Shown piece after piece: positions 15,270-57,631 of a stretch of 64,000 nt of DNA. The DNA comes from Pseudemcibacter aquimaris (GTDB lineage Bacteria; Pseudomonadota; Alphaproteobacteria; Sphingomonadales; Emcibacteraceae), in contig NZ_CP079800.1 of the NCBI RefSeq assembly GCF_028869115.1, forward strand, positions 2,517,501-2,581,500, read 5' to 3'. The notes below the pieces were generated by a model that saw only the letters and a list, made by a program, of their open reading frames with translations, was not told the origin of the DNA and searched no databases. Numbering within the stretch: the first letter of the stretch is position 1; each line of letters opens with the position of its first letter. Position numbers and translations under genes: made by a program.

Positions 15270-15728
15270 ATGCCATTTACAATAAACGACGATAAAACGA
15301 TCAATCATCCTGCTATTAAAGATTTTCTAGCAGATTGTAACAAAGCGACCAATGGCGATTTATTGTCGGTTCAATATGTTCAAACGTATGATTTAATCAA
15401 ATATTCAAAATGGCTCATTATTTCTGAATATGACGATGAAAAAAACGATTTTAAATTTCGGTATAGCGGCAGCAAGGTTTGTTCATTTTATGGAATGGAA
15501 ATAACCGGAAAATATATTTCTGAAACCGCGTCAGAGGATAACATTGAGCCACTAATAAATATATATAAAGACATCATAAAAACACGTAATACGGTTTATC
15601 TTTCCGGCACGCTTAAACCGCGCGGCAAGGCATTTATTGACTGGCATATGGTCAGTCAGCCTTTAATCAGAAACGATCAAATCAACGAAGTAATTGGCTT
15701 TGTAATTTTCGATGATAACAGCACATAG
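15270..15728 (+). CDS. PAS_5-like sensor protein, copy 1
   Basis: A 152-residue soluble protein, first of three tandem paralogues. The core DLIKYSKWLIISEY...FKFRYSGSKVCSFYGMEITGKYISE follows the PAS_5 pattern common in alphaproteobacteria, where FRYRLxGT and FGRDLTGR are the usual landmarks. The C-terminal strand region is FIDWHMVSQPLIRNDQINEVIGFVIF. There is no output domain, so any signalling must act through a partner. The start MPFTINDDKTINHPAI is mirrored by copy 2. Function unknown. Confidence 0.65.
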   Translation: MPFTINDDKTINHPAIKDFLADCNKATNGDLLSVQYVQTYDLIKYSKWLIISEYDDEKNDFKFRYSGSKVCSFYGMEITGKYISETASEDNIEPLINIYKDIIKTRNTVYLSGTLKPRGKAFIDWHMVSQPLIRNDQINEVIGFVIFDDNST

Positions 15729-15829
15729 TTTCATTGAAATAAATTAAATATATGCAATAAGACTTTGTTGTTAAAGGGGTTTATTTGATATATAAGACAA
15801 GAATTAAATATCATTTAAATCAAAGAATT

Positions 15830-16291
15830 ATGCCATTGATTATAAACAACGATAAAACGATCAATCACCCCGCAATTATCAAATTCAAGCAGGCTTGCGA
15901 CAATGCGGCCGCAGGTAATCCGTTGACCATTAATATGGTGCAATCACGCGATCTATTTAAATATTCAAAATCTTTAATGATCGCAGAATTTGATAAAGAG
16001 CAGAATGATTTCAAATTTCGTTTTTGTGGCAGCAATATTGCTTCAAATTATGAAATGGATATCACGGGAAAATATATTTCAGAAACAACCGACCCATCCA
16101 CAATAAAAGAGTTCATCAAAATCTATAAAAGCATCATTGATGATCAAAAAACCGTCTATTTCACAGGCACTCTTCAAACACGCGGCAAAGATTTTTTGGA
16201 TTGGCACCAAATAAGTCAGCCTTTGATGCGGAACGGAAGAATTAACGAAGTCATCAGTTACGTCATCGTCGAAGGTCGTGTGAATGACTAA
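15830..16291 (+). CDS. PAS_5-like sensor protein, copy 2
   Basis: Second paralogue, 153 residues from the ATG at 15830 (MPLIINNDKTINHPAI). This start aligns with the start of copy 1. A TTG at 15785 would add 15 residues with no counterpart in the other copies. Shared blocks with copy 1 include LFKYSKSLMIAEFD, FKFRFCGSNI, MDITGKYISET and DWHQISQPLMRNGRINEVI. The divergence is clear but the order of motifs is unchanged, which indicates an old duplication. Confidence 0.65.
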   Translation: MPLIINNDKTINHPAIIKFKQACDNAAAGNPLTINMVQSRDLFKYSKSLMIAEFDKEQNDFKFRFCGSNIASNYEMDITGKYISETTDPSTIKEFIKIYKSIIDDQKTVYFTGTLQTRGKDFLDWHQISQPLMRNGRINEVISYVIVEGRVND

Positions 16292-16315
16292 AAGTAATTA
16301 AGGGAGGGAAAAGCA

Positions 16316-16798
16316 ATGAAATTCAAAATCAATGATGATGATGCCGTTAACGATCCTTATCTTAAAAAATTCATGAACATCTATGAAAATATTGCGGCCA
16401 AAGATCATTTTAATATCAGCCATATACAATCCACAGAATTATTTAAATATTCAAAAGATATGATCATCGTAAAACCGGTGAATAAAGGTGAGGATTTTAT
16501 CTGCACTTTTTGCGGCACTCACATCGGAAATATTTATGGAATGGACATTACAGGCAAACACATTACAGAAACCAACCCCGAACAGCCGTCCAAATTAATC
16601 ATCGATCTATTAAATGAAACACTCAATAAAAATGATTTCATTTATTTAAGCACATGCATAAGCCGTGAAGGATTCCGTGAAATAGAATGGCATCAGGTCA
16701 TGATACCATTCTGGCGCACCGATGAAATACGCGAAGTCCTTTGTTTAATTTCAACGGAAATCACCAAAGATTATAGCCCGTTGCTGAAGGCACTATAA
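16316..16798 (+). CDS. PAS_5-like sensor protein, copy 3
   Basis: Third and most diverged paralogue, 160 residues. It retains ELFKYSKDMIIV, FICTFCGTHIGNIYGMDITGKHITET and IEWHQVMIPFWRTDEIREVL. It begins 24 bases after copy 2 behind a strong GGGAGGG ribosome site, so it is likely co-transcribed with copy 2. It has a longer C-terminal tail than copies 1 and 2. No partner kinase or cyclase sits next to the array. Confidence 0.65.
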   Translation: MKFKINDDDAVNDPYLKKFMNIYENIAAKDHFNISHIQSTELFKYSKDMIIVKPVNKGEDFICTFCGTHIGNIYGMDITGKHITETNPEQPSKLIIDLLNETLNKNDFIYLSTCISREGFREIEWHQVMIPFWRTDEIREVLCLISTEITKDYSPLLKAL

Positions 16799-41392: not shown

Positions 41393-43570
41393 TTAAGATT
41401 TCAAGGCTCTGGCTTTATGAATTTTCTTATAACTTTCAATAAGTTTTAGATGCTTATCAAGCCCTTCCAAATTCATACTTGTTTTATTGAGGCCATAGAA
41501 TTTTACCTCACCCGTGATGGAACCCACGACATTTTTCATCACATCATCACCGAACATACGCGACATATTGGTCAGATAATCCGCCATATCAAGCGTATCA
41601 TCCTGCTCAATATCAAGCGCAGCATTCACCGCCTGATAAAACAGAACCCGTTCTTTTGTGTTGTCATTGTAATTTAGAAAATCAAAAATGATTTCCTTGG
41701 CATCTTCGTAATTTCCAAGGGCCAGATGAATTAATATTTTAAGCTCACCTATATCAAGTCTGCTCCAGACCGATGTATCATCAAACAAGATGCCAATTAA
41801 ATCTGAAATCAGCGTGTAATGATCCAGCTCGCTTTCTTCTAACCTTTCAAGAAGATCTTCAAGGTCGTCATAATCAAGTGAATGAATATTTAGAATATCT
41901 TCACGGAATAAAAGCGCTTTATTGCTATTATCCCAGATCAGATCATCGGCCGGATACACTTCAGAATAACCGGGTACAAGAATACGGCACGCACAGCCAC
42001 CAAAATCATTATATGTCGCCACATAAACTTCTTTGCCGATGCTTTCCATAATGCCCATTAAAGTTTCGCATTCCTGCTCATTGGTGCCGGAAAAATCCCA
42101 TTCCACAAATTCATATTCGTTTTTCGCGCTGAAAAATTTCCATGACACAACCCCCGTTGAGTCAATGAAGTGTTCAACGAAATTATTAGGTTCGCTTACC
42201 GCTAAACTATTAAATGTGGGTGGTGGAACGTCATTTAACCCTTCGAAACTTCTGCCTTGCAATAATTCGGTTAGGCTTCTTTCTAATGCGACTTCGAAAC
42301 TCGGGTGACCGCCGAATGACGCAAACACACCGCCCGTTTTCGGGTTCATTAAAGTCACACACATCACCGGATATTTCCCACCAAGTGACGCATCCTTTAC
42401 CAGTACCGGAAATCCTTTATCCTCAAGCTCATCAATACCCGCCTGAATATGTGGATATTTATCTAGAACGCTTTTCGGCACATCAGGAAGCACAATTTCA
42501 TTTTCAATGATGTCACGCTTTACGGCGCGTTCAAATATTTCAGATAAACATTGCACCATGGCTTCATGTTCATTATTACCCGCGCTCATGCCGTTGCTGA
42601 CGAACAGATTTTCGATCAGGTTCGATGGAAAATAAACCGTTTTAGCATCGGATGCCCGATTAAACGGCAATGCGCAAATGCCACGGTCACTTCTGCCGGA
42701 ATTGGTATCAATCAGGTTGGATGCTTTTAATTCATCATCGGGGTCAAATATCCCAAGGGTATAATCATCCAATATCCCATCCGGCAATGCATCATTCGGC
42801 CCGGCTTTAAACCATTTTTCATTTGGATAATGAACAAATTCACTGTTCGCGATTTCTTCACCGAAATAATAATCGTTATAGAAAAAATTACAGCTTAACC
42901 GTTCGATATATTCCCCAAGTGCGGAACATAATGCGCTTTCCTTGCTTGCGCCCTTACCGTTCGTATAGCAGACGGGTGACGCCGCATCACGAATATGAAG
43001 TGACCAAACATTTGGGACAATATTACGCCATGATGACACCTCGATCTTGATACCAAGGTCGGATAGAATGCCGCTCATATTTTTAATGGTTTGCTCAAGC
43101 GGTAAATCTTTACCCAAGATCATGGTTTCGCCATCGATCATATCATCCATGCTAAGGATCGATGTGTCATCCTCGATGCTTTCGACGGTTTCGATGTTGA
43201 AATCCGGCCCTTCCTGCACCACTTTTTTCACGGTGCAGCGATCAATGGATCTTAAAATCCCTTCGCGGTCGCGGTCCGATATTGTATCCGGAAGCTCAAC
43301 ACCAATTTGGAAAGTTTGTTTATATCTGTTTTCAGGGTCGATAATGTTGTTTTGGGAAATTCTGATGCCGTCTGTTGGTATTTTACGGGCAAGGCAATAA
43401 ACCTTTACAAAATATGCAGCACATAACGCGGATGAGGCCAAGAAATAATCAAACGGACTTGGGGCCGTGCCATCGCCTTTATACCTAATGGGCTGATCCG
43501 TGATGACGGTAAAATCATCAAATTTCGCCTCAAGTCGCAAGTTATCCAAAAAATTTACGGTGATTTCCAT
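41393..43570 (-). CDS. OsmC-YcaO fusion protein
   Basis: A 725-residue fusion. Residues 1-130 are an OsmC/Ohr-type domain with cysteines at C50 (SSALCAAYF) and C112 (DRCTVKKVV), where the peroxidatic and resolving residues of the family lie. The middle (about 150-540) is a YcaO domain with ATP-site segments including SALCSALGEYIERLS and CLSEIFERAVKRD. The C-terminal 180 residues are helical and TPR-like, as in E. coli YcaO. YcaO proteins use ATP to activate amide backbones and E. coli YcaO has been linked to RimO. It sits just downstream of ahpC and ahpF on the same strand, suggesting a role in peroxide defence. Confidence 0.85.
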   Translation of the reverse strand: MEITVNFLDNLRLEAKFDDFTVITDQPIRYKGDGTAPSPFDYFLASSALCAAYFVKVYCLARKIPTDGIRISQNNIIDPENRYKQTFQIGVELPDTISDRDREGILRSIDRCTVKKVVQEGPDFNIETVESIEDDTSILSMDDMIDGETMILGKDLPLEQTIKNMSGILSDLGIKIEVSSWRNIVPNVWSLHIRDAASPVCYTNGKGASKESALCSALGEYIERLSCNFFYNDYYFGEEIANSEFVHYPNEKWFKAGPNDALPDGILDDYTLGIFDPDDELKASNLIDTNSGRSDRGICALPFNRASDAKTVYFPSNLIENLFVSNGMSAGNNEHEAMVQCLSEIFERAVKRDIIENEIVLPDVPKSVLDKYPHIQAGIDELEDKGFPVLVKDASLGGKYPVMCVTLMNPKTGGVFASFGGHPSFEVALERSLTELLQGRSFEGLNDVPPPTFNSLAVSEPNNFVEHFIDSTGVVSWKFFSAKNEYEFVEWDFSGTNEQECETLMGIMESIGKEVYVATYNDFGGCACRILVPGYSEVYPADDLIWDNSNKALLFREDILNIHSLDYDDLEDLLERLEESELDHYTLISDLIGILFDDTSVWSRLDIGELKILIHLALGNYEDAKEIIFDFLNYNDNTKERVLFYQAVNAALDIEQDDTLDMADYLTNMSRMFGDDVMKNVVGSITGEVKFYGLNKTSMNLEGLDKHLKLIESYKKIHKARALKS

Positions 43571-46889: not shown

Positions 46890-48266
46890 ATGTCCAAAAT
46901 TACCAGAAGAAATTTTGTCAATGGCACCTTAATGGCGGCCGGGGCATCGCTTTTGCCCTTTAAGGGAACAGGACAAGAAGTTCTGGCAAAAATGAACCCG
47001 GATTTTTACCCGCCATCAATGACCGGACTACGCGGCAGTCAGCCGGGATCAAATGATGCTGCCCATGCGCTAAGCTGGGCTGGCCAGGATGATTGGGGTA
47101 AGAAGGAAAACCTGAACGAAGAATATGATCTCGTGGTTGTTGGTGGCGGCATCAGCGGCCTTGCGGCCGGATATTTTTTCCAAAAGGAATATGGCAATGA
47201 TAAAAAGATACTGATCCTTGATAATCATGATGATTTTGGGGGACACGCCCGACGCAATGAACACCACATCGACGGCAATCTTCGCATTGGTCAGGGTGGT
47301 TCTGAATCGCTTGAGGATACAGCAAGCTATAGCGGCGCCCTGCTTGAAATGTTGAATGACATTGGCATCGATCTTAATCAATTTACCGAAAGATATGATT
47401 TCGGCTTTTTCAAACGACACGGCCTTAGTGCAAAAATGTTTTTTAATGAAAAGACCTTTGGCAAAAACACGCTTGTTGATCACCCGCTATGTGATTATCC
47501 CGGCTTTATCGAAGGCATGGTCAGACCAACTATTTCGGTCGAGGATGCCGTTGCACAAACCCCACTCAGCGAAAGTGGGAAAGAACAGCTTCTTAAGGTG
47601 ATTAAGGCAAGCCAGGATGATCTGGGCGTTCCAAAAAGCCAGATGAAAGAATTCGCCAAATCCAATTTATATTTTGATTTCTTAAAAAATACACTTGGTG
47701 TGGATGATGAACATGTGCTGCAAATCGCAAGACATACTTCCGTTGATTATACCGAAGGCGGGCTTGATGCATTAAGCCTTTATGATGCGCTCGCAAGTGG
47801 GCCACTTGGTGATGACCCGAATGTGGCATGGAAAGATGCACTTGGTAATGGTGCATATCAGCATTACATCAATAAAGATAAGGGCACATACGGCACCGAC
47901 GATCCATTCATTCAACATTTCCCAGATGGCAATGCAACCATCGCCAGATTAATAGTTAAAAAATTAATCCCCCACGTGGGACCCGGTGACAACGTAGAGG
48001 ACGCAATCTTATCCAAATATAATTACGCCGCCCTCGATCTGCCGGATAATATCGCGCGAATTCGCCTGAACAGTACTGTCGTGAATGTAAAACATGATGG
48101 CCCCGTTAACACCGCCATAAGCGCATTTGTGAATTATATCAATGATGGCAAATCATATGTGGTAAAGGCCAAAAATGTTGTGATGGCATGCTATAATATG
48201 ATGATCCCGTTTATTGTTCCTGATTTGCCGGAAGATCAATTTACGGCGTTAAGAAGCCTAACCTAG
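46890..48266 (+). pseudogene. Tat-exported FAD oxidoreductase, 3' truncated
   Basis: An NAD(P)/FAD-binding oxidoreductase with a twin-arginine signal (TRRNFVNGTLMAAGASLLP) and the dinucleotide motif VVVGGGISGLAAGYFF, followed by DNHDDFGGHARRNEHH. The ATG at 46890 starts the signal peptide; a GTG at 46878 is weaker. From memory, relatives run to about 600 residues or more. This one stops at 458, a few codons after MACYNMMIPFIVPDLPEDQ. The stop comes exactly where a tail-to-tail ABC transporter gene is also cut. The FAD domain cannot be completed, so the product is probably inactive. Confidence 0.75.
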
Positions 48267-49413
48267 CGTGGCCATCGTTTGGCTGCCATGTTCCGACAAG
48301 TATTTTGCAAAGGGTAGTTTTGCCAGCCGATGATGGCCCGATAATGCCAAGTACACTACCTTGATCCAACGTAAAATTTACTCGGTTCAATGCCGGCACC
48401 TGATGCCCCTTGGGAAAATAGGTTACATCTTCACAAACCAATTTCCCATTGGGTTTTGGTAAATTAGATTGTGTTTTCTTTTGATCGGATATTTCAAGCA
48501 ATGTTCGGATACGTCCATAAGAACTTCGTGCATTCACGAAACCGCGCCACGATGAAATGGCTTGTTCCAATGGGCCAAGCGCACGAGCAAGCAATATCGA
48601 TCCCGCGATCATACCCCCAGGCGTTAGCTGGTTCCCAAGTACAAGATACGCGCCAAGCCCTAAAACACCAGCCTGCGCAGCCATTCTTAAGAAACGGCTC
48701 ATACCAAATAAAGTACTGCTTCTGTCTGATGCGATTTGCCTTTTGGCTAGTATTTTATGATTACTTTGCTGCCAACCTTCACTAAAAGGATTAAACATGC
48801 CCATGGCTTGCAATACATCAGCATTTCGAACCGCAAGATCAGCAAGATGTTGATTTTTAATATGTTCTTCTGATGCTTCTGATAATGGTTTTCTTGTTGC
48901 CACTTCATTTAACCAAGTAATGGTGATAAGCATGGCACCGAATACCACAGCCAAAATACCAAGCCATAAATGTAAAACAGATACCGCAGCAAGAAAAATT
49001 GGTACCCACAACAGATCCGTTAATGTTCTTAATGGGCCTGTGATAAATTGTCTGATGGAACCTAAATCTCTTAATGATTGTGCACTAGCAGGCATGCCAC
49101 TTAATGCACCCTGCATGCTTGCCTTTAATAATTTTGGGGATAATGATTTATCAAGCCAATTACCGATCCGGTTTAAAAGACGTTTTCTGACGCTTTCCAT
49201 TATGCCGGATACAAGCAATGCAATAATCACGATGAACGTAAGAAAAAGTAATGTTTCCTTACTACCGGAATTTAGAACCCGGTCAAATATCTGGATCATA
49301 TAAAGTGGAGTTGCCAGAAGAAGTATATTAGCCACAAAGCCAAAGCCGATCAGGGCAATTAACCCTGATCTACCTTGCTTAATTAAATCATTTAATGATG
49401 ATCTGTTTTTCAT
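48241..49413 (-). pseudogene. Type I secretion ABC transporter, 3' truncated (PrtD-like)
   Basis: The N-terminal 390 residues of a PrtD/HlyB-class exporter. The membrane domain begins with the family-typical ATPLYMIQIFDRVLNSGSKETLL and LWVPIFLAAV. Walker A is present (GPSSAGKTT, 359-367), and the recognisable sequence ends soon after, at GTWQPNDGHARL. The Q-loop, the LSGGQ signature, Walker B and the H-loop are absent; intact relatives have about 560-580 residues. AAGGAG precedes the start. It follows the adhesin gene by 47 bases on the same strand, so it was its probable exporter. The expected membrane-fusion gene downstream is missing. Confidence 0.85.
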
Positions 49414-49460: not shown

Positions 49461-52400
49461 TTAACCAACACCAAAATCATTACCATCAAAGACCACAGTG
49501 AATTCTTCATCATCAGTATCCTGATCACCATCCATTGCCGTCACGGTAACATCAATTTCATAATCCGGAATTTCATCTTGTGTTAGCAGGACGAAATCTT
49601 TTACACGGATGGTATCATTATCCTTATCATCAGGACCATTATTTGATTCAGGATCATCCATTTCGAACCAAACAACCATGAAATCAAAGAATTGGAGATT
49701 ATCGGCAAAGCCGTCATTATTGGCATCGACGCCATCTCCACCAAGAACATCATCCGGAGTAACCTGTAAAACTACTCCGCCATGCTTGTTAACTCCAGCG
49801 AGCTCATCCGCCAGAACTTCGCCATAGTCCACCATGCCATCACCAGCACTTAAAACGCCATCGTTATTAGTATCGTTATAAGCAACCCAATGGACGGTCG
49901 CATCATTATTGTTACCAATACCATCAACCGTAAATCTGAACCCTACGGATTCTTCCGGCATTGGAATTGCAATAAATCCGCCAAATTCTTCAAAGTTTGA
50001 ATCCTGCTCGGCACGGTTACCAAATCCAACCTGATTAGCATTTAGGTCATCATCCGTACTTGAATAACCACCCGCTGCCGCATCGCCTGGATTTATAACA
50101 TCACCGTCATTGATTGGATCAATGGTTGTGAAGTTTTCGACAAATACGCCATCAAAAGTTACCAATATTGGCTGGTTGGCGTCACCACCTTCATTTGCAT
50201 ACACAAATTCCTCTGGTGATCCAGGATTCACAAACGCAAGATTTGTTTCAAATGGGACAATTGGTGGGGTCTGCACTGTTACCTGCCATTCCGTACCACC
50301 GTTGATTATGTCAAACGTAATTGTCGTCGCATCTTCCGAATTAATATCACCCGGCATATTGGATAAAATCAACTGATCTGTTCCAAGTCCACTAACTACA
50401 ACCAATCCATCTGGAAGGTCAGGGTGCGTTAAATCAACCGCTGAAAATACCACTGGCGTAGTACCATGTTCTTCATCGTTACCATAATCAACGGTGATCG
50501 CGCCTGTATCCGTAGGTGACATACTATAAATTTCTACAAGGCCGTCATCTATGTTGGTAATTTCAACACCATCATCAAGGATCGTGATTTTTTCACCAAG
50601 GTCAATGCTGCTTGAACCATAATCGCCATCACCATCTGTAACAGTCGCTGTGACATAAAGAACATCAGAATCAAGTGTGATCGCTTCATTATCATCATTT
50701 GGATTTGGATGCACGACTGAGCGTTTTTGATCAAAATCCACTTCGGCTGTCACATCATCAATTGAAATGATAAATGCAACGGCACCGGCTTGGCCGCCGA
50801 CACGCCCTTCCACTGTACCTGTATTGGTTTTATAAAGCAGGATATCTGCATCGGTTAATGTGTCATTAAGACCGCTATCCACGCCTTCTGAATCAATGGT
50901 AAGGCTAAATGTTTTTGCCGCACTTCCACCATCAGAACCGTAAGTTATCGTACCAAAGTAACCAGCGAAATTATCACTTCCATTATTTGGAAGCGTACTT
51001 TCATCAACTTCAATTGCGGCATCATCTTCTTGAAGGGCAATTGATGGCCCATCATCTTCAAAATTAATCAGCTCGCCAAGATCAATGGTATCTGAAACAT
51101 AATCTCCATCACCATCAGTTAACATAACCATCAATTCTACGAGGCCAGAATTCATTACCTCTGGAGAGGCATTTTCATCAGGATCATTCGGATCATCATG
51201 CTTAAGTGCACGGCTTTGAGTAACGGTAATATCGCCAGTATCAGCATCAACAGCAATACGGAAAACTTCATCACTATTTCCATCGGATGTACGTCCCACG
51301 ACATCACCGCTTTCAAATGACAAAACAACTGCTGTATCAGATACTGTATCCGTTAATCCAGATGCACCAGCATTCAGTATAAGAGAAAATACCGTTGGAT
51401 CCGTGGCCGCTTCACCATCATTTCCGTGCGTTAATGTGGTATAGAATGAGCTGCCGTTTACTGTGACATCTGCTAGCAAGCCACCAACATCACCATCATC
51501 ACCATCATTATCGGTTTCATCAAGCACGATTGGTGCAGCGTTATCGTTAAGTTCAGCTGTCGGACCATCATCTTTAAACGTTAGGTTGCCACCAAGATCA
51601 ACTTCGGCACTATCCGTATCACCATCGCCATCTTCAATTTCAGCCACAAGATTGATGACATTGTCACCTAGACTTAAGCTTTCATCGTGATCAGTAACAG
51701 GGTCAGGTCCGGGGTTATCCGTATGTACAATCGCACGTGACTGATCAAGTTCGAGCATTCCACCAACAATCGAAACTGTAAAGACTAGCTCGCCTCCACC
51801 TGCTTGGCCACCTGCGATTGTCCATCCCTCGATACTTCCGGCATTGTTATAAAGAATAACTTCATTACCGGTCAACGTATCATAAAGGCCACTATTGGCG
51901 TTTTCTATTTCAAGACTATAAGTCGTACTACCCGGACCATCGGAACCGTAAGAAGTATCAAAATAATCGGCAACAGCATTTGTATCAGTATCATCCGTAT
52001 CAAAATCACTGTCATCAACCATTAAATCAGGCTCTGATCCAGTTGCTTCTACAGAGGGACCATCGTCCTCAAAGCCTACCATGGACCCTATGTCGGCGGT
52101 ATCCATGTCATAGTCACCATCCCCATCGGTCACGGTCAGCACCGCATCAATCTCTCCACTGTCCAGCATCAACAGACTGTCATGGTCATTACCATCGTCA
52201 CCATGATCAACAGCACGGTGCTGGGTCAAGGTGACATCGCCTGTGTCCGCATCAATCGATAACGTAAACACAAGTAGATTGCCATTCTCTGTCCGGCCTT
52301 CAATGACACCGTTATTATCCGTGAGCATGACATTCTCACCGCTCGCGGTATCATCAACACCGGAATCACCATCGCCGCCACTGTTCAGTGCCAAAGAATA

Positions 52401-55400
52401 AACCGCATAGTCACTATCGGCCATGCCGTCTGATCCATAGACAGAACTATCCACAAACAGCAGATTACCAGCGATGGTCGCAGAACCAAGATTGCCACCG
52501 ACCACATCGGTCTCACCCGGAGCATTATCAACACCATCGGTTTCATCAACAACAACATAACCACCCGCAAGCGAAAGATCAGATGTTGGGCCATCGTCCT
52601 CAAAGCCTACCATGGAGCCAATGTCGGCGGTATCCATGTCATAGTCACCATCCCCATCGGTCACGGTCAGCACCGCATCAATCTCTCCACTGTCCAGCAT
52701 CAACAGGCTGTCATGGTCATTACCATCATCACCATGATCAACAGCACGGTGCTGGGTCAAGGTGACATCGCCTGTGTCCGCATCAATCGATAACGTAAAC
52801 ACAAGTAGATTGCCATTCTCTGTCCGGCCTTCAATGACACCGTTATTATCCGTGAGCATGACATTCTCACCGCTCGCGGTATCATCAACACCGGAATCAC
52901 CATCGCCGCCACTGTTCAGTGCCAAAGAATAAACCGCATAGTCACTATCGGCCATGCCGTCTGATCCATAGACAGAACTATCCACAAACAGCAGATTACC
53001 AGCGATGGTCGCAGAACCAAGATTGCCACCGACCACATCGGTCTCACCCGGAGCATTATCAACACCATCGGTTTCATCAACAACAACATAACCACCCGCA
53101 AGCGAAAGATCAGATGTTGGGCCATCGTCCTCAAAGCCTACCATGGAGCCAATGTCGGCGGTATCCATGTCATAGTCACCATCCCCATCGGTCACGGTCA
53201 GCACCGCATCAATCTCTCCACTGTCCAGCATCAACAGGCTGTCATGGTCATTACCATCATCACCATGATCAACAGCACGGTGCTGGGTCAAGGTGACATC
53301 GCCTGTGTCCGCATCAATCGATAACGTAAACACAAGTAGATTGCCATTCTCTGTCCGGCCTTCAATGACACCGTTATTATCCGTGAGCATGACATTCTCA
53401 CCGCTCGCGGTATCATCAACACCGGAATCACCATCGCCGCCACTGTTCAGTGCCAAAGAATAAACCGCATAGTCACTATCGGCCATGCCGTCTGATCCAT
53501 AGACAGAACTATCCACAAACAGCAGATTACCAGCGATGGTCGCAGAACCAAGATTGCCACCGACCACATCGGTCTCACCCGGAGCATTATCAACACCATC
53601 GGTTTCATCAACAACAACATAACCACCCGCAAGCGAAAGATCAGATGTTGGGCCATCGTCCTCAAAGCCTACCATGGAGCCAATGTCGGCGGTATCCATG
53701 TCATAGTCACCATCCCCATCGGTCACGGTCAGCACCGCATCAATCTCTCCACTGTCCAGCATCAACAGGCTGTCATGGTCATTACCATCATCACCATGAT
53801 CAACAGCACGGTGCTGGGTCAAGGTGACATCGCCTGTGTCCGCATCAATCGATAACGTAAACACAAGTAGATTGCCATTCTCTGTCCGGCCTTCAATGAC
53901 ACCGTTATTATCCGTGAGCATGACATTCTCACCGCTCGCGGTATCATCAACACCGGAATCACCATCGCCGCCACTGTTCAGTGCCAAAGAATAAACCGCA
54001 TAGTCACTATCGGCCATGCCGTCTGATCCATAGACAGAACTATCCACAAACAGCAGATTACCAGCGATGGTCGCAGAACCAAGATTGCCACCGACCACAT
54101 CGGTCTCACCCGGAGCATTATCAACACCATCGGTTTCATCAACAACAACATAACCACCCGCAAGCGAAAGATCAGATGTTGGGCCATCGTCCTCAAAGCC
54201 TACCATGGAGCCAATGTCGGCGGTATCCATGTCATAGTCACCATCCCCATCGGTCACGGTCAGCACCGCATCAATCTCTCCACTGTCCAGCATCAACAGG
54301 CTGTCATGGTCATTACCATCATCACCATGATCAACAGCACGGTGCTGGGTCAAGGTGACATCGCCTGTGTCCGCATCAATCGATAACGTAAACACAAGTA
54401 GATTGCCATTCTCTGTCCGGCCTTCAATGACACCGTTATTATCCGTGAGCATGACATTCTCACCGCTCGCGGTATCATCAACACCGGAATCACCATCGCC
54501 GCCACTGTTCAGTGCCAAAGAATAAACCGCATAGTCACTATCGGCCATGCCGTCTGATCCATAGACAGAACTATCCACAAACAGCAGATTACCAGCGATG
54601 GTCGCAGAACCAAGATTGCCACCGACCACATCGGTCTCACCCGGAGCATTATCAACACCATCGGTTTCATCAACAACAACATAACCACCCGCAAGCGAAA
54701 GATCAGATGTCGGACCATCGTCTTTAAATGTTAGATTTCCACCCAAATCAAATGTTGCATCATCTGTATCCCCATCGGCATCTTCGATCGAAGCATTAAG
54801 GTTAATTATATTATCACCAAGGGATAAACTTTCATCATGATCAATCACAGGATCAGGGCCTGGATTATTTGAATGAATAATCGCGCGCTCTTGATTTAAA
54901 ACCAATGCACCTCCAACGATTGACAAACTGAATACCAGTTCACCGCCACCACCAGCGCCGCCTGGTAAAGTCCAGCCTTCAACAACGCCATTGTTGTTAT
55001 AAAGAATTACTTCATTGCCAGTGGCGGTATCGTATAATCCTGAATTCGCATTTTCTATTTCAAGGCTATATGTGATTGAGCCAGGACCATCTGCACCAAA
55101 TTCAATATCAAAATAATCCGAAAGCATATTGGCATCGGTATCATCAATGTCCAAATCACTTTCATCGACCATTAGATCAGGTTCTGAACCATTTACATCT
55201 ATTGTCGGAATATCATCTTCTATATTAATTGTAATGGTTGAGGATGCTGTCAGATTAGTTGGATCTGTAACAGTATAATTAAACAGTTCATGGACGCCAT
55301 CAGTTGCCGTGCCTTCTGTATTATGATCAGTACTATTTGTTGTCAGGGTATATTTGTAATTCCCGTACATATCAATTTCAAGAACACCAAAATCACCATT

Positions 55401-56165
55401 AATGGTCGTGGTTGTGCCGTCCTGCGGTACATTCACCACATTACCATCAAATTCGACACTGGTGACAGATACGGAACTATCGGGATCACTGAAAGAAAGT
55501 GTTCCGGAAACGGTTTCTTCGCCTGAATCTGGATCGGATCCTGTTGTATCTGCCGGCGCCACATCATTGGTATCATCATCACCCGTTACATCAGTATCAA
55601 GTGCAGCTTCATCGACAGTTCTCTCTTCCGGATTAGCAACAGGCGGCATCGGAAGTGTACCAACAAGTTTCAATGAACCTTCACGTGGGCTGTTTGGCGC
55701 ACCAACACTGGTCAGACGAATGCCAAAATATTGTTCAGCAATATCTTCATAGGAAAGAGATTCTGTTTCGCTATCTAATATAAAAGTAACCGATTGAAGG
55801 TCATCAGAAGACATGCCGGGTGTGCCAAGCTCAATACCTGCATCAAACGGTGCTTCCTCAACACCATGCATATTGGCACCATTCCCAAGATCGACTACAC
55901 CGTCGGTTTCAAATTGATAATCCGTAACAACCCCATCTGGATCATCGACATAACCATCATTGGTGTCATTTACATATGTGACAGACAAGTCGTTTAAACT
56001 GTCATTTGCTAAATCAAAAAAGAACCCCCTTAAATCACCAATCTTTGGACCATCCAAAATAGTGATTGTGAATTCCAATTCCATATCACCATCACCATCA
56101 TAGTCCACTTCATAATAGTCTATTTGTATTGTGATTCCTGCGCCTGATACATATGTGGTCGCCAT
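49461..56165 (-). CDS. Giant Asp-rich VCBS/T1SS-143 repeat adhesin
   Basis: A 2234-residue, very acidic protein, probably a surface adhesin or biofilm matrix protein exported by a type I system, as there is no N-terminal signal peptide. The N-terminal about 180 residues are unique, followed by a VCBS-like domain (EETVSGTLSFSDPDSSVSV...GNYKYTL). The rest is T1SS-143/DUF5801-type repeats, each ending near DGDGDYD-containing calcium-type turns and DDGP. Five nearly identical 177-residue units span about residues 483-1367; diverged units flank them. The C-terminal 450 residues are non-repetitive. No GGxGxD nonapeptide array is seen. GGAGAA precedes the ATG. Its presumed exporter gene downstream is truncated. 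Confidence 0.85.
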   Translation of the reverse strand: MATTYVSGAGITIQIDYYEVDYDGDGDMELEFTITILDGPKIGDLRGFFFDLANDSLNDLSVTYVNDTNDGYVDDPDGVVTDYQFETDGVVDLGNGANMHGVEEAPFDAGIELGTPGMSSDDLQSVTFILDSETESLSYEDIAEQYFGIRLTSVGAPNSPREGSLKLVGTLPMPPVANPEERTVDEAALDTDVTGDDDTNDVAPADTTGSDPDSGEETVSGTLSFSDPDSSVSVTSVEFDGNVVNVPQDGTTTTINGDFGVLEIDMYGNYKYTLTTNSTDHNTEGTATDGVHELFNYTVTDPTNLTASSTITINIEDDIPTIDVNGSEPDLMVDESDLDIDDTDANMLSDYFDIEFGADGPGSITYSLEIENANSGLYDTATGNEVILYNNNGVVEGWTLPGGAGGGGELVFSLSIVGGALVLNQERAIIHSNNPGPDPVIDHDESLSLGDNIINLNASIEDADGDTDDATFDLGGNLTFKDDGPTSDLSLAGGYVVVDETDGVDNAPGETDVVGGNLGSATIAGNLLFVDSSVYGSDGMADSDYAVYSLALNSGGDGDSGVDDTASGENVMLTDNNGVIEGRTENGNLLVFTLSIDADTGDVTLTQHRAVDHGDDGNDHDSLLMLDSGEIDAVLTVTDGDGDYDMDTADIGSMVGFEDDGPTSDLSLAGGYVVVDETDGVDNAPGETDVVGGNLGSATIAGNLLFVDSSVYGSDGMADSDYAVYSLALNSGGDGDSGVDDTASGENVMLTDNNGVIEGRTENGNLLVFTLSIDADTGDVTLTQHRAVDHGDDGNDHDSLLMLDSGEIDAVLTVTDGDGDYDMDTADIGSMVGFEDDGPTSDLSLAGGYVVVDETDGVDNAPGETDVVGGNLGSATIAGNLLFVDSSVYGSDGMADSDYAVYSLALNSGGDGDSGVDDTASGENVMLTDNNGVIEGRTENGNLLVFTLSIDADTGDVTLTQHRAVDHGDDGNDHDSLLMLDSGEIDAVLTVTDGDGDYDMDTADIGSMVGFEDDGPTSDLSLAGGYVVVDETDGVDNAPGETDVVGGNLGSATIAGNLLFVDSSVYGSDGMADSDYAVYSLALNSGGDGDSGVDDTASGENVMLTDNNGVIEGRTENGNLLVFTLSIDADTGDVTLTQHRAVDHGDDGNDHDSLLMLDSGEIDAVLTVTDGDGDYDMDTADIGSMVGFEDDGPTSDLSLAGGYVVVDETDGVDNAPGETDVVGGNLGSATIAGNLLFVDSSVYGSDGMADSDYAVYSLALNSGGDGDSGVDDTASGENVMLTDNNGVIEGRTENGNLLVFTLSIDADTGDVTLTQHRAVDHGDDGNDHDSLLMLDSGEIDAVLTVTDGDGDYDMDTADIGSMVGFEDDGPSVEATGSEPDLMVDDSDFDTDDTDTNAVADYFDTSYGSDGPGSTTYSLEIENANSGLYDTLTGNEVILYNNAGSIEGWTIAGGQAGGGELVFTVSIVGGMLELDQSRAIVHTDNPGPDPVTDHDESLSLGDNVINLVAEIEDGDGDTDSAEVDLGGNLTFKDDGPTAELNDNAAPIVLDETDNDGDDGDVGGLLADVTVNGSSFYTTLTHGNDGEAATDPTVFSLILNAGASGLTDTVSDTAVVLSFESGDVVGRTSDGNSDEVFRIAVDADTGDITVTQSRALKHDDPNDPDENASPEVMNSGLVELMVMLTDGDGDYVSDTIDLGELINFEDDGPSIALQEDDAAIEVDESTLPNNGSDNFAGYFGTITYGSDGGSAAKTFSLTIDSEGVDSGLNDTLTDADILLYKTNTGTVEGRVGGQAGAVAFIISIDDVTAEVDFDQKRSVVHPNPNDDNEAITLDSDVLYVTATVTDGDGDYGSSSIDLGEKITILDDGVEITNIDDGLVEIYSMSPTDTGAITVDYGNDEEHGTTPVVFSAVDLTHPDLPDGLVVVSGLGTDQLILSNMPGDINSEDATTITFDIINGGTEWQVTVQTPPIVPFETNLAFVNPGSPEEFVYANEGGDANQPILVTFDGVFVENFTTIDPINDGDVINPGDAAAGGYSSTDDDLNANQVGFGNRAEQDSNFEEFGGFIAIPMPEESVGFRFTVDGIGNNNDATVHWVAYNDTNNDGVLSAGDGMVDYGEVLADELAGVNKHGGVVLQVTPDDVLGGDGVDANNDGFADNLQFFDFMVVWFEMDDPESNNGPDDKDNDTIRVKDFVLLTQDEIPDYEIDVTVTAMDGDQDTDDEEFTVVFDGNDFGVG
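52064..54718 (-). repeat. Five tandem 531-bp coding repeats
   Basis: Five copies of a 531-bp unit (177 codons) lie head to tail in the adhesin gene. The internal copies appear identical over hundreds of bases. The lowest-coordinate copy differs at a few sites near its edge (for example ATGGACCCT versus ATGGAGCCA near 52080). The first copy is bounded by GTCGGACCATCGTCTTTAA instead of the GTTGGGCCATCGTCCTCAA of the others. Such identity points to recent amplification or gene conversion, and the copy number may vary. Confidence 0.95.
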
Positions 56166-57556: not shown

Positions 57557-57631
57557 TGGTGCCCGGGGGCGGATTTGAACCACCGACACGCGGATTTTCA
57601 ATCCGCTGCTCTACCCCTGAGCTACCCGGGC
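57557..57631 (-). tRNA. tRNA-Phe (GAA)
   Basis: A 75-base cloverleaf on the minus strand. The acceptor stem is GCCCGGG/CCCGGGC, the D-arm GCTC/GAGC and the anticodon stem GCGGA/TCCGC with loop TTGAAAA (anticodon GAA). The T-arm is GGTGG TTCAAAT CCGCC, and an encoded CCA end lies at 57557-57559. It lies upstream of nothing obviously mobile; no integrase or att duplication was seen. Confidence 0.97.

Follow-up and report, generated by a model that had tools for sequence, protein, structure and literature searches.

A probable deletion scar joins the stumps of a flavoenzyme gene and a T1SS transporter gene in Pseudemcibacter aquimaris

How do two genes on opposite strands, each shorter than its relatives, come to end at the same point of a bacterial chromosome? 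In the window analysed here, a 64,000-nucleotide stretch of Pseudemcibacter aquimaris corresponding to bases 2517501-2581500 of a single-contig 3.37-Mb genome, a flavoenzyme frame (FAD; 46890-48266, +) and an ABC transporter frame (48241-49413, -) converge and have 26 bases in common. A first-pass annotation had attributed this arrangement to one deletion that took both 3' ends together with the DNA between them. Full-length orthologues and two homologies that meet within 8 bases agree with that proposal, and we consider the locus to be, very probably, the scar of one recent deletion.

Two stumps and their meeting point

On the plus strand, 46890..48263 holds ~458 of the ~630 codons, all from the 5' part, of a gene for a Tat-signal flavoenzyme in the spermidine dehydrogenase (SpdH)-like family. 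Read from its ATG, the ORF encodes 458 aa and lacks the 3' ~173 codons present in the orthologues of four congeners, which share 75, 69, 63 and 62% identity with it and measure 629-633 aa from ATG. The stump matches these orthologues up to its last codons, where they run on as ALRSLN-KVPLQ, ALKKLT-KVPLQ or ALRSQS-KVPLQ and the window reads ALRSLT-stop. The closing in-frame TAG (48264..48266, +) stands where the orthologues encode Lys (AAA/AAG) and is a chance stop, produced by antisense ABC sequence read in the FAD frame. Across its whole length, the full-length orthologue in G001 matches the SpdH structures 7d9f-7d9j (E 2e-119 for 7d9f), with residues 4-632 aligned to SpdH 3-619; the window copy differs in retaining just the N-terminal 458 residues of this homology and in lacking the C-terminal ~173; the first-pass annotation has it ending mid-fold. 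Because ~27% of its length is missing, the flavoenzyme stump is very likely inactive.

On the minus strand, the facing ORF encodes 390 aa, with the 5' ~70% of a PrtD-type T1SS ABC gene at 48259..49413, namely the transmembrane region and the start of the ATPase past Walker A. The stump matches TIGR01842 at E 2e-117 over profile positions 2-377 of 544 and PF00005 over positions 1-42 of 137, in keeping with the earlier reading that the protein stops just past Walker A (GPSSAGKT, residue 359). Its relatives (about 570-680 aa, the nearest 44% identical) align with it up to GHARL(G), at stump residues ~382-386 of 390. A motif check of the stump detected neither the LSGGQ signature nor Walker B, both of which are found in a 586-aa relative (G045), and the combination of transmembrane region and full nucleotide-binding domain that makes a complete ABC transporter is lacking. 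Since the signature and Walker B are missing, the stump is predicted to be unable to work as a transporter.

The two homologies fade from opposite sides of a very short interval, the FAD limit lying at 48260 (Leu) or 48263 (Thr) and the ABC limit at 48259 (Leu) or 48256 (Gly), in agreement to within one codon with the range of 48254-48262 first proposed. Protein and codon alignments from both sides thus place the junction at 48256..48263 (GCCTAACC), where the limits overlap by 2-8 bases, as joining through a handful of shared bases would produce. The octamer is a candidate microhomology, its overlap judged from protein alignments rather than from ancestral DNA. Beyond the junction, the 3' tail of the ABC frame (48241..48258, -), comprising its last residues and stop, is antisense FAD sequence without homology to PrtD relatives. 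Alternative frames of the same DNA contain 25-47 stops, whilst each open frame carries a homology of 370-450 residues, which argues against the open frames having arisen by chance.

The missing parts and a single-deletion model

Searches of the rest of the genome recovered neither a free FAD 3' end (three matches proved to be full-length paralogues at ~40% identity), nor a matching ABC 3' half, nor a HlyD gene matching the ABC stump. The genome holds two TIGR01843 matches above cut-off, both in other operons (2.263 and 2.674 Mb). The only headless T1SS ABC fragment, at 2.26 Mb, was considered as the missing half and rejected, as it starts at TIGR01842 position 270 and overlaps the stump; it is a separate gene with congeneric orthologues 83-87% identical, and it belongs to a separate broken operon described below. 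Both truncations therefore fall at one junction with the missing parts nowhere else in the genome, the pattern that defines a deletion-made pair. An inversion or translocation was rejected on the same grounds, neither lost 3' part having turned up as a free piece elsewhere in the genome.

Relatives indicate what the lost interval probably contained, each of them sharing one side of the junction. No HlyD-type membrane fusion gene adjoins the ABC stump, whereas in 8/8 PrtD-type relatives examined such a gene lies 3' of the ABC gene on the same strand, mostly directly adjoining; together with the lack of a matching HlyD in the genome, this agrees with the original suggestion that a membrane-fusion gene was lost. 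On the other side, the gene that immediately follows the FAD gene in G001, G008 and G012 belongs to the enolase superfamily; no such gene lies there in G002, FAD neighbourhoods being variable among congeners. A search of the own genome, run without a positive control in the same run, found no enolase-family gene. From these comparisons, an enolase-superfamily gene was probably among the losses too, an item absent from the first-pass annotation.

We propose that the ancestor carried an SpdH-like flavoenzyme gene on the plus strand, probably followed by the enolase-superfamily gene, and facing these on the minus strand an operon of adhesin, PrtD-type ABC and HlyD genes. One deletion, which probably arose through illegitimate recombination between very short stretches of shared sequence, would have removed the flavoenzyme 3' end, the enolase gene, the HlyD gene and the ABC 3' end, so that each stump finishes in a short run of junk codons read from antisense sequence. 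The loss would amount to at least ~3.7 kb (~0.5 kb of FAD, ~1.3 kb of enolase, ~1.35 kb of HlyD and ~0.6 kb of ABC sequence). The event looks recent because both stumps have kept their open frames and the divergence of the FAD stump is not raised. Compared with G001, the FAD stump diverges by 0.20/0.15/0.60 at codon positions 1/2/3, and its distance from the other congeners does not clearly exceed that among those congeners themselves; this third-position-heavy divergence, without excess amino-acid change, points to constraint until recently.

The locus resembles bacterial pseudogene pairs made by a single internal deletion through illegitimate, short-homology recombination: both genes are cut at one common point, little sequence is shared there, and the genome has no copy of the lost 3' ends. 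It differs in nothing essential, the ancestral state here being reconstructed from separate relatives. Deletion-made pseudogenes are ordinary gene decay; searches of the literature turned up no directly relevant report of a similar case.

Alternative histories of the locus

A multi-step rearrangement, in which the T1SS/adhesin segment arrived beside the flavoenzyme gene already cut, or was placed here by an inversion or insertion that broke both genes, with the other pieces lost later, is unlikely in our estimation. It would account for the fact that the FAD gene and the adhesin-T1SS genes are not neighbours in any congener seen, that congeners lack a T1SS related to the stump except for a 31% relative in G008, and that the segment lies beside tRNA-Phe (57557-57631), where the neighbourhood varies among congeners. 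It needs more events than one deletion, however, and a plain inversion should have joined the FAD 3' end to the ABC 3' end, neither of which is in the genome. Arrival as a mobile island at the tRNA gene was rejected because the tRNA-Phe 3' end is not repeated elsewhere in the window, an absence that also counts against the multi-step history.

An assembly or library chimera, in which distant pieces were joined artificially and the organism carries both genes whole, appears very improbable. Joining at a short shared sequence is also known from chimeric molecules, but the genome is one contig with an estimated completeness of 100%, and because the missing halves are nowhere in it, the artefact must also have removed sequence. 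In addition, an array of 5 x 531 bp with four identical units was resolved, which together with the single contig suggests that long reads were used. We therefore favour a real deletion, on the combined grounds of the single contig, its completeness, the resolved array, the absent halves and an independent parallel break elsewhere in the genome.

That both proteins are naturally short and their overlapping ends original can be dismissed, despite two open frames and the purifying-type divergence of the FAD stump, as 4/4 FAD orthologues and the PrtD-type relatives are full-length at 629-633 and 570-680 aa, respectively, and motifs that ATP hydrolysis depends on are missing from the ABC stump. 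Among 398 genomes of the order, no comparably short ABC relative with the same neighbours was found; the top-scoring ABC matches lay in open frames of ~560-730 aa, and the few shorter frames listed cover the query only partly.

A giant DUF5801 protein without its own exporter

Upstream of the ABC stump, in the same direction and across a 47-bp gap, lies an intact gene (49461..56165, -) for a 2234-aa giant protein, presumed to be surface-located or secreted, with nine DUF5801 stretches (PF19116 x9, E 2e-275) in a single open frame. With the PrtD-type T1SS operon (TIGR01842 ABC with TIGR01843 HlyD) the locus shares the TIGR01842 match and a giant repetitive protein encoded immediately upstream in the same direction; it differs in being a remnant, its nucleotide-binding domain cut after Walker A and its HlyD partner absent. 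The giant protein is presumed to be the substrate of the lost exporter.

The first-pass annotation had it that the adhesin was left without its exporter. This holds for the operon's own components, the giant protein now being without its cognate ABC and HlyD. It does not extend to all export machinery in the genome, as a distant complete T1SS persists at 2.673-2.679 Mb (L068), comprising RTX protein, HlyD, ABC (~22% identical to the stump) and TolC. A TolC-type channel is encoded at 1.644 Mb (TIGR01844 above cut-off), and a further TIGR01844 match, below cut-off, falls at 2.677 Mb inside the intact T1SS. Given that this system and a second TolC remain, we infer rather than observe the loss of secretion; judged from gene content, complete loss of DUF5801 protein export is likely. 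Annotation pipelines would call a flavoenzyme, a T1SS transporter and an adhesin here, of which the first two are probably nonfunctional and the third is perhaps not exported.

Within the DUF5801 gene, the 531-bp units form a tandem array of five (52050-54704), four of them identical in DNA and the fifth differing by 11 bases, a pattern that suggests recent expansion or gene conversion. The units were counted by script, Tandem Repeats Finder having remained silent because its longest period was 500.

A second broken T1SS operon

The genome contains a second broken T1SS operon at C1:2261352-2264279 (L067 9352-12279), in which the C-terminal ~190 residues of an RTX protein (-) are joined head to head with the last ~290 codons of a T1SS ABC gene (+). 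The HlyD gene that follows the ABC part is interrupted by a nonsense TAA where congeners have GAA or CAA/CAG. Six congeners (G004, G006, G008, G009, G010 and G011) have the gene order ABC1 (566-586 aa), ABC2 (733-782 aa) and HlyD, with ABC1 in two frames in G006, the same conserved genes downstream and, on contigs that extend far enough, a giant divergent protein upstream. The own ABC2 starts at LSPLQN, which, set against the congener order, means that this genome has lost ABC1, most of the RTX gene and the 5' ~60% of ABC2. A deletion thus took the 5' ends of the RTX and ABC genes. Five other congeners (G001, G002, G005, G007 and G012), some of them with incomplete genomes, give no ABC2 match or a far weaker one, and the ABC1-ABC2-HlyD operon may have been lost repeatedly in the genus. 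The congeneric operons (L106-L111), with two consecutive ABC genes before one HlyD, possibly encode a heterodimeric exporter.

Taken with this second operon, the window provides a recent example of adhesin export being lost in parallel in one lineage, the only part of the findings slightly beyond routine gene decay. Of the three T1SS operons, two have been disrupted in separate events, by deletions and a nonsense change, and the frames beside the breaks are intact; on this basis the lineage might be amid a selected, recent loss of giant surface proteins, a reading we consider possible but doubtful. If true, it would suggest a shift away from attached life.

Surroundings of the locus

The regions beside tRNA-Phe and the FAD gene differ between congeners, and the ancestral gene order could not be reconstructed from them. 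The tRNA-Phe gene adjoins a conserved rng/maf/hisD/hisG cluster on one side, its other side differing among congeners. Elsewhere in the window, a 725-aa protein with an OsmC domain fused to YcaO and YcaO_C (41393-43570) is encoded beside ahpF/ahpC-like genes, and three consecutive similar small ORFs (152, 168 and 160 aa) at 15270-16798 are apparently tandem paralogues.
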